Below, piece after piece: positions 57,601 through 64,000 of a stretch of DNA of 64,000 nt (positions within the stretch are counted from its first letter, which is position 1; each line of letters begins with the position of its first letter). The DNA comes from Tubiluchus corallicola (taxonomy: Eukaryota; Priapulida; Priapulimorpha; Priapulimorphida; Tubiluchidae). The position numbers and the translations under genes are program-made. A model generated the notes under the pieces. That model did no database searches. It saw nothing but the letters and a program-made list of their open reading frames with translations, and had not been told where the DNA came from. The stretch covers positions 609,093 to 673,092 of the forward strand of contig JAQGDQ010000033.1 of assembly GCA_030141605.1 (NCBI GenBank). The letters are read 5' to 3'.

Positions 57601-60600
57601 ATCACTCACCACATGTACCCGATGCTTGGCGAGTGCAGGTACAGTACCAAGTTTTACTAATTACTTCACGTAACTGCTGCGAGTAGAAATGCTGGAATTC
57701 GATTTCTTTATTTCTTTTCTGCTTAAGTTGTTGGTTTTCACATTCATAAAAAATGACTGGGCATTTACTTTAACTGTGTTTATGTAAAAATTAGTCCTCT
57801 GATCAATTAGCTACAACTTACATAGGGTCCATAGGATAATACCTCAACAAAGCTTTCTTTTTGCACATAATAAACAGATAAGCACCAAATTCTGCGAGAC
57901 TACAAGCACACAGTTTTCGCATTTTCGCTGCGCAGGTACTTGGCTTATATACTTCAGTTTGAGCTTGTTCAAATAATTGTTCTAATACTTTGTCGGTAAT
58001 AGCCAAGTTAGAAGTTATTATATTATCATCAGTAACTAGTTTTCCCTACATAGTGGGCATATGAATTCATCAAAAACCAAAAAATAATCTCTCACTGAAC
58101 ATTTTAAATTCCTTGTAGTAGATAACGGTAACTGTTGCTGCACACAAAGTTTGCTCAACTGCTCGTACAACTGGGCGGGACAAATGTTTGTATGGCGTGG
58201 CAACAGGATGACACCATTTTTCATTCAAAATGAGTGCGCCCAAGCATGAAATGATCGCAACTTCAAATTGACTTTACTAATTACACAAGGAGCTTATCGC
58301 ATTTCTTCTTTTGAAACTTTCTAATATTTATCTAAAATATTAAAATAAGCTCAACTACCCGAGACACCTGATTTGTCCTACATTTAAAATTAATAAAGGC
58401 ATTAACATTACACATAACTAATTACTTAGAACTATAAACAACACTTGGAGTTTCAAATGTTTTAAGAATGAAATAAATTGATTAGTTCTGGGAACTATTT
58501 AATAAAATGACACCACCTGTAGAAAATTGTCCATGAAGTTAGAATACATGGCATGGACTCTCATCATTGGCTGATGAATGTTCATGTTCATCATTGGTTG
58601 TAGCATACGCATATGGGGAGGCTCGTTTTCCACCTAGAATAAAAAAATTAAAAAATTTTTCTTTCATGAAAATAGATATTGTAATGAACATGAAAAGCCA
58701 CTTATTTAATGATATGATACAATACAAAGCCACTGCATATGGGCAACGAGTGTCAGATATAAAAGCACCTGTATTCAGTAGTGGTGCGGCCAGGTGTGTT
58801 TCGCCTTCTCAATACCTGTTCCACAACCCAGAATGAGAGATGCAAGGCAGGTTTGCTGGCAAGTTTATTAATAATTTCTGGATAAATTTTGGCAATTCTA
58901 CACATATCTTAATGACCAGTGTTATCAGCACCATCGCCAACAGTTCAATACATTTAAGCATTACCAATTCAGCATGGATAGCAAAGTTGTAAGACAAAAA
59001 TCTAGTTGACCAGAGCAAAAATAAAGTTGCACTCTGTCTAAACCTTAAAAGTAATGAAACATTTTGTTGATCAAAACATTTTCGCATGTCAGTTTTATGA
59101 AATAATGTGCTAAAGTATCCAGTCTCACTTGATCACCAGCCATACCAAGACTTGTGCTGAAGTAATTAGGCAATGAATGCAACAATATGACAAAAATCTC
59201 TTAGGTTGAAAAACTCAAAATTCTAAGATTTCTTTGAAACTAGAGAAAGAGGGAGAGGGAGAGGGAGAGGGAGAGGGAGAGGGAGAGGGAGAGGGAGAGA
59301 GAGAGAGAGAGAGAGAGAGAGAGAGAGAGAGAGAGAGAGAGAGAGAGAGAGAGAGAGAGAGAGAGAGAGAGAGAGAGAGAGAGAGAGAGAGAGAGAGAGA
59401 GAGAGAGAGAGAGAGAGAGGGGGGGGGGGTAGTTTCTTAATTTTTTGCACTGAATTATACATATACCTCCTGCTGGTGTAATGTTGCAATTGGAAGCTGG
59501 CTACTGCAGCCTAGCTTACAAGCAAACCTTTCTTCTTCGCCTGTGTACGATTCTTCGCATGCTGTAATAGAGACAACAACATAATTAACTTTGTAAAAGA
59601 ATTCTATACATAAACAAGGAAATAATATAAAAAAGTAAATGAAAATGAATGCTTCAGTTACAGTTAGTGGCAGAAAATAAGATGATAAACTGATATATTT
59701 CTAATGAACTGGCCTATCACTTAGAAGAGCATATTTTTAGGAATGACAGGCTAATTATCAGTTTAACATCTAACCGAAAATGTGGAAAATTATGCGACGC
59801 TTTGAATTATTCCGCCATCAACAAATTTTTTATTATTAGTAAAAGTTAACCTATGAGCAGGCCTACGTAAGCTTAAGCAATTAAACTTGCTAGTCACAAA
59901 CGTATTCTAAATTTCAACCTAGGATAAGAGTATGGACTATCAAAATAATGCCACATGGCCACAAATCGACCAGTAGTATATCTGAACTTGTGGCTGCTGA
60001 TCTAAGCTTCAAAACAATATTGAAAACTCTTAATTTATAAAATTACGTAAATGTAAAGCATGACAATTAAACATGTTATAACTTATACTTTCTGAACTTT
60101 TGTTTAAATATGACACAAAAAAGATCCAATCTGATCCTAGGCATTTTTTCCCTATTTGTTGGTCATCACCATATCACCATGTTAGTAAATCAGGTTTCTA
60201 TGTCAAAATTTAGAAGTCTGCCAGTTATTCCATCTTTTGCACTTTTGCACTTAAGCTGCATTGTCAGTTTGATGTACAACAAACTTTATAGAAGTTTCAT
60301 AGCATGAAATATATACACTGAGTAAAAAGTTACAACAGACTTTCTCATGTTTTTGTGAATATTGCAGAAGAATCATAGGCTTAATTAAAAAAAGAAATAA
60401 AGCCTAGAGCTCAAAACATGTGTCATAAGAATGACAGCTGCCCCCAGAAAATAATGTTTCTCGTTGGCAGAACTGTGCAAGAAATTTCAACAATACAAAT
60501 ATTGCTTGTATGTTAATTTGTTAAACAGATTTAAACCACGCCCTGTTCAGAATAATCTAGTTAAAGATGCTAACAATACCATCACAGAGTCTAAAAGCAC

Positions 60601-60861
60601 TGATATCAATTTCCTTTTACATTATATTGCAATCAGTTAGATTTTTTCCAAGGTCTAGGACACTTACATCATACATGCTTTCATTTCTAGTGCTCAGTGC
60701 ACAAACGTACAAGATTTAACTTAATATGGAGAAAGTTTTACATTTTGCTTACATTTTTGACATACGTCCCTTGTCTCATTTAGGGTGTTACTTGGATCAC
60801 ACATGAATTCTGAGATTGCAAATAGTCGACATCCTCGTTTGCAACTGACCGAGTTCTCTGT
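54628..60861 (-). CDS. TMEM59: TMEM59 orthologue, seven exons, 5' end missing
   Basis: Type I membrane glycoprotein of Golgi and endolysosomes; in vertebrates it modulates glycosylation and trafficking and can promote ATG16L1-dependent LC3 labelling. Exons: 60753-60861, 59467-59561, 58517-58633, 56975-57083, 56130-56237, 55620-55747 and 54628-54753, together 792 nt (263 residues plus TAA) in consistent phase. The luminal part has the paired Cys motifs [16 protein letters not shown] and [14 protein letters not shown], matching ACQRGCRLFSICQF and QYACHLGCQNQLP of human TMEM59. Then come [17 protein letters not shown], a single membrane segment [19 protein letters not shown], and a cytosolic tail ending [10 protein letters not shown] (human EEAGPLPTKV). 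The signal peptide and first Cys repeat (about 60 residues) are absent because the sequence turns into an inverted repeat 260 bp upstream of the first visible exon. Confidence 0.93.
57170..57816 (-). mobile_element. LINE fragment related to the 53-kb relic (TMEM59 intron)
   Basis: Short blocks TATTTGAGAAAATGACATAA (57250-57275) and ATTCTGCTATTCTA match the relic near 53430-53530, and GATCAATTA-containing sequence near 57800 matches 53555. The match is interrupted by about 400 bp of unrelated sequence, so the copy is fragmented. It lies in the intron between the exons at 56975 and 58517. Confidence 0.4.
57818..58224 (-). pseudogene. Unidentified frameshifted coding-like region in a TMEM59 intron
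   Basis: Two consecutive minus-strand frames, 58036-58224 and 57818-58006 (extended upstream to about 58045). The first ends just after a CPLC motif; a one-base shift there would continue into [20 protein letters not shown] and onward to a stop after YYPMDPM. Composition is protein-like (mixed, with Cys pairs) and less AT-rich than the surrounding intron. I do not recognise the family. It may be a decayed retrocopy or transposon fragment, and is not part of TMEM59 because the flanking exons join in phase without it. Confidence 0.4.
59244..59429 (+). repeat. (GGGAGA)n/(GA)n/(G)n tract, left palindrome arm
   Basis: About eight GGGAGA-like units, then pure GA, then a run of 11 G ending at 59429. 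It lies in a TMEM59 intron 37 bp below the exon at 59467. It is the main place where the two palindrome arms differ. Confidence 0.95.
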
Positions 60862-63730: not shown

Positions 63731-64000
63731 GTGGTGTCATTTTATTAAATAGTTCCCAGAACTAATCAATTTATTTCATTCTTAAAACATTTGAAACTCC
63801 AAGTGTTGTTTATAGTTCTAAGTAATTAGTTATGTGTAATGTTAATGCCTTTATTAATTTTAAATGTAGGACAAATCAGGTGTCTCGGGTAGTTGAGCTT
63901 ATTTTAATATTTTAGATAAATATTAGAAAGTTTCAAAAGAAGAAATGCGATAAGCTCCTTGTGTAATTAGTAAAGTCAATTTGAAGTTGCGATCATTTCA

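Follow-up and report, generated by a model that had tools for sequence, protein, structure and literature searches.

Artefacts in which a long read returns along its opposite strand have been described in several settings. Fold-back reads are reported to make up about 0.55-0.6% of ONT genomic reads and to be virtually absent from a PacBio HiFi sample, with less than half of the artefact reads carrying any searchable sequence between the segments (PMC12870357). For unamplified PacBio DNA, a control is reported with palindromes in 0.5% of reads, and a figure of 40-50% is given for Arabidopsis samples (PMC6218980), while in amplified tardigrades about a third of the mitochondrial ONT reads are described as fold-back (PMC13265396). 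With respect to assembly, the PBJelly authors put missed adapters at about 1% of PacBio reads and describe splitting such reads where they are recognized; in their method, contigs are lengthened into gaps and whatever is left unfilled stays as N (PMC3504050). The 2013 assembly of Adineta vaga contained palindromes of homologous blocks, which are reported not to have been found in the related A. ricciae (PMC5916493). Multiple-displacement amplification also yields inverted joins of nearby segments, usually with an intervening deletion and often with short complementarity at the join (PMC1855051).

Comparable arrangements are known from real rearrangements. Inverted duplications in yeast are reported to arise from short inverted repeats at breaks (PMC10622511), and small inverted triplications in the same organism are described with a median spacer of 30 bp and inverted parts that can reach several kb, their breakpoints tending to occur close to microsatellites (PMC13334657).

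The locus considered here lies at the end of a window of 64,000 nucleotides from the priapulid Tubiluchus corallicola (C2043:609093-673092, within a scaffold of 1,052,218 bases in an assembly of 343,548,820 bases and 2344 contigs). Elsewhere in this window, a 5S rRNA gene is found at 46233-46351 on the plus strand (RF00001 at 110 bits; nothing else in the window reaches the gathering level in Rfam), surrounded by minus-strand open reading frames at 45.6-48.8 kb that look like reverse-transcriptase/endonuclease remains and gave no Pfam match above cut-off. Exons encoding a BEACH domain (PF02138) occupy 8745-11131 on the minus strand and are presumably part of a large LYST/WDFY-like gene.

The initial annotation had described a near-perfect palindrome of >2.8 kb at the right end of the window, and alignment of the arms over their full length bears this out. 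Specifically, window 58247-61122 recurs in inverted orientation at 61135-64000, and a BLAST comparison of the reverse complement of the right arm with the left arm gave a single alignment over the full length (2866 bases against 2876), containing 1 mismatch and interrupted by one gap of 10 bases. The accompanying claim that the arms differ only in a GA/G tract is likewise upheld. The arms are identical at 1000/1000 outer and 1694/1694 inner positions (2,694 in total), and all differences are confined to a stretch of 182 bases in the left arm and 172 in the right that corresponds to the GA tract. This GA/GAGGGA tract spans 59242-59428 (plus strand) in the left arm and 62828-63005 (minus strand) in the right, and the counts of pure GA units (62) and GAGGGA units (8) are equal in the two arms. 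The single mismatch is an A versus a G at 59247, with the A in the left arm, and the gap reflects ten extra G residues present in the left arm only, aligned at 59419-59428. A second long AG tract, of about 152 units, is found at window 27386-27692; its longest G run is 5, unlike the G run of the left arm.

Long pure GA runs are among the fastest-changing kinds of sequence, so the equal unit counts argue for either one source sequence or an extremely recent copy, and in combination with the complete identity outside the tract they point to one source sequence for both arms. Moreover, when 283,908 bases including the window were surveyed for inverted pairs of at least 60 bp with at least 90% identity and a spacer under 500, the only other pair was a 64-bp AT repeat, and the inverted match of the arms is thus far beyond chance.

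The arms cover part of a TMEM59 gene. Introns and exons 2-4 lie in the native part of the left arm (58247-61110, plus strand), with the exons on the minus strand at 60754-60861 (exon 2), 59467-59562 (exon 3) and 58517-58633 (exon 4). By arithmetic, their mirror images fall on the plus strand at 61396-61503, 62695-62790 and 63614-63730, within the inverted copy at 61147-64000 that forms the right arm on the minus strand. Further downstream exons lie outside the arm on the minus strand between 55623 and 57038 (within 55623-55733, 56110-56238 and 56973-57038, the exon ends being approximate). When the later exons were joined, they matched PF12280, which we take to be the TMEM59 family, with an E value of 2.5e-31. 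A search of the genome with this profile found one place only, a result that says little about copy number, as the search runs exon by exon and missed the exons in the arms. Dispersed repeats were observed at the outer boundary of the left arm and further out (window 57362-57773 and 57937-58370). They have at least 66 matches, with 40 of 1579 candidates scored, and two of these are their own locus and the right arm. Some matches fall at identical offsets (98992-99203 and 99487-99616) in contigs C457, C628 and C2254, which suggests that these contigs are duplicated in the assembly.

At the centre of the palindrome, a 12-bp spacer had been proposed at 61123-61134. Pairing of the arms in the DNA fold does reach 61123/61134 and leaves a loop of 10 nt, and folding of the central 60 bases gives a 25-bp stem capped by this loop, but the native sequence of the left arm ends earlier, at 61110. 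What follows is a perfect 36-bp hairpin with a 13-bp stem and a 10-nt loop (61111-61146), and the native arm ends are accordingly 36 bp apart. The fold therefore brings the sequence back to the same locus in the opposite orientation, within the 200 bp that Breakinator uses by default to call a fold-back.

The hairpin is absent from the local native sequence, and each of its 24-mer halves lacks any other match in the genome within two mismatches. No local template was evident, the longest word that the hairpin shares with other parts of the window, or with the scaffold between the N run and position 693000, being 11 nt. Hairpins with a stem of at least 13 and a loop of 3-40 are rare, numbering four in the surveyed 284 kb, the central one included, among stems with at least three kinds of base. 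An adapter or vector origin was considered and set aside, as searches of contigs, viruses, plasmids, E. coli and the literature returned nothing beyond chance. In exact-match searches, the first 24 bases were found in neither bacterial nor viral contigs, and bacterial contigs also lacked the 24 bases at the centre. When the centre was extended by two bases to either side, the hits were limited to 6 plasmid records that did not exceed chance (best E 2), with none among E. coli genomes, and four hairpin strings occurred in none of the papers searched. A SMRTbell adapter at the centre found no support either, with a local alignment score of 6 against a shuffled mean of 5.7. An E2F-like motif in the loop was dropped because the loop is not native sequence.

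The form of the hairpin raises the question of a mobile element, in which a small TA-flanked inverted-repeat transposon at the centre would have driven the fold-back, either in vivo or in vitro. The ends of the 36-bp insert are perfect inverted repeats of 13 bp, and the left arm and the native sequence part directly after a TA, although this TA is on the left side of the insert and the right side carries only its mirror. The genome offers little to match such an element: beyond the unmatched 24-mer halves, a 15-mer from the hairpin end, TAGGCATCTTTTTTG, occurs 3 times elsewhere compared with 3 times for its reversed control, and the best inverted partner near these three loci is 8 nt. We also sought a Tc1/mariner-like miniature element, and neither a family nor other genomic copies with a shared terminal repeat were found. 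A role for a transposable element is accordingly judged highly improbable.

An N run of 2,121 (scaffold 673093-675213) begins at the base directly after the window end and is the only one in the 283,908 bases examined. The right arm stops at 64000 because the N run starts there, and its outer end lies beyond the visible sequence. This N run is likely, though not certainly, an assembly gap, since N can also stand for withheld sequence; if it is a gap, the inverted arm reaches the gap edge without reaching any unique sequence. The position of a gap here is not decisive in favour of an artefact, as assemblies are prone to break at real palindromes too.

Just beyond the N run, a third copy of the arm is found in forward orientation. 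Window 59430-61110 (1,681 bases) recurs unchanged at scaffold 675349-677029, and these 1,681 bases are the same in the right arm. The third copy begins at the counterpart of window 59233, some ten bases ahead of the GA tract, such that the break and the tract nearly coincide. Its tract differs from those of both arms, with a longest pure run of 32 GA units and other interruptions, and the third copy would therefore be another allele, another copy or a poor consensus. Both differences between the arms, namely the ten G residues and the one A, are private to the left arm among the three copies. This fits the earlier proposal that the arm differences are sequencing errors in the tract, while falling short of proof.

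Where the left arm enters the 36-bp hairpin and then returns, the third copy leaves the arm after the equivalent of 61110 and continues into different sequence. This continuation contains an exon 1 candidate at scaffold 677572-677420 on the minus strand, which opens with a start codon, encodes a hydrophobic stretch, closes with a segment that contains cysteine and is bordered by a GT donor. It is in phase with TMEM59 exon 2, its start lies 390 bases past the boundary, and its layout is presumably that of the N terminus of TMEM59 proteins. A Pfam search of the candidate found no family, and a sequence search of the PDB returned only two chance-level rows for spike proteins (E about 1). Inspection by eye of three frames between the fold and exon 2 found no exon resembling exon 1. 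We take the candidate to be the missing first exon of TMEM59. The initial annotation had named such a continuation of the left arm sequence into exon 1 as evidence that would count against a real palindrome, and the third copy provides it at the level of the assembly. Its point of departure is 61110 rather than the proposed 61122.

The age of this unbroken order was addressed with a query across the native junction (scaffold 676950-677700), which matched its own locus, both arms of the palindrome (query 1-80 only) and three places elsewhere. All three of the outside matches, one in C1080 and two neighbouring each other in C177 (72-75%), run across the boundary at query 80/81, and for this reason the order in the third copy is older than the palindrome. 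A native continuation that does not fold back is therefore present in the assembly, from scaffold 677030 onward through the exon 1 candidate, together with outside matches that span the boundary.

A visible order of duplicate, inverted and duplicate copies is also what would be expected of a real, young inverted triplication in TMEM59 (A, inverted A, A, then B), produced by two template switches with the second junction inside the N run. The arm contains a GA microsatellite, in keeping with the tendency reported for breakpoints of the yeast counterparts (PMC13334657), and by our own arithmetic the length of the N run would fit a unit starting near window 57680. On the other hand, the tract of the third copy differs while the two arms agree exactly in their unit counts, and the 36-bp centre is not native loop sequence, whereas we would expect a native spacer from the fold-back model presented in PMC3907307. 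These two features argue against an inverted triplication, and its second junction would in addition fall outside the visible sequence. We regard this explanation, although it is the chief competitor of an artefact, as quite unlikely.

The distinct tract of the third copy is, moreover, what an allele would show, which raises the alternative that a real heterozygous fold-back inversion, or a plain palindrome, sits on one haplotype and that the third copy derives from the other. Long palindromes with a 10-nt loop are expected to be unstable, which weighs against this scenario, and searches of the genome found neither the arm end nor the A-B junction on a separate haplotig. Fold-back of a break in yeast is reported to be capable of yielding a perfect palindromic duplication (PMC10622511), while the inverted duplications described in human patients have spacers of 766-70,466 bp (PMC3907307). 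Overall, a heterozygous event of this kind is extremely improbable.

We consider it very probable that the palindrome is an assembly artefact at the edge of a gap rather than a real genomic structure, since the next piece of the scaffold appears to hold the normal continuation of the interrupted TMEM59. The preference of the initial annotation for an artefact is thereby supported by scaffold sequence beyond the window. In terms of mechanism, a molecule spanning the left arm, in the DNA or in the library, may have acquired a cap or fold at window 61110 through the 36-bp hairpin, after which copying or reading went back along the complementary strand. The resulting A-hairpin-A′ sequence would have been built onto the end of one contig, after which the scaffold would step across the N run to the next contig, which starts at this GA tract and shares about 1.8 kb with the left arm before going on into the true continuation, comprising the rest of intron 1 and TMEM59 exon 1. 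The three copies, the N edge, the continuation with exon 1 and the lack of any other genomic match to the hairpin are observed directly; that the N run is a gap and that the join arose from a fold-back molecule, at the library or the assembly stage, is inferred.

The weakest part of this account concerns the hairpin. Had the native strand simply snapped back on itself, native loop sequence would be expected at the centre, and none is present. A hairpin-capped fragment end fits best, the cap being either a hairpin oligonucleotide from the library or a private insertion of natural origin that primed the snap-back. If such a private insertion in TMEM59 intron 1 had instead primed its own snap-back in the animal, the sequenced individual would carry a real inverted triplication of several kilobases, very young and with a loop of 10 nt, a possibility that we hold to be very unlikely.

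Compared with the known systems, the locus shares with the artefacts targeted by Breakinator and Pacasus a near-exact return on the other strand, a tiny centre and nothing unique beyond the inverted arm, and differs from them in lying within an assembled scaffold rather than in reads and in having a 36-bp hairpin at its centre. A missed hairpin adapter incorporated by gap extension of the PBJelly type would give the same succession of insert, hairpin, reverse insert and remaining N, but the hairpin here shows no likeness to the SMRTbell adapter. Chimeras from multiple-displacement amplification share inverted joins of nearby segments; they usually have an intervening deletion and often short complementarity (PMC1855051), and here the native ends are separated by a 36-bp insert for which no local source was found. 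The small inverted triplications of yeast (PMC13334657) correspond in their duplicate-inverted-duplicate order and short centre, as far as they are described, and depart from the present case in that here the centre is non-native, the third tract differs and the second junction would lie within the N run. Both the near-absence of fold-backs reported for PacBio HiFi and the splitting of missed-adapter reads by PBJelly itself count against an artefact in our analysis.

Taken together, these observations are mainly a matter of quality control for this genome. Annotation of the scaffold as it stands would put extra TMEM59 exons 2-4 on the wrong strand and could also report a long palindrome, in which there is probably no new biology. 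Were the palindrome real, it would be an example, in an animal, of a structure that is expected to be unstable, namely long and nearly identical inverted arms around a loop of 10 nt.
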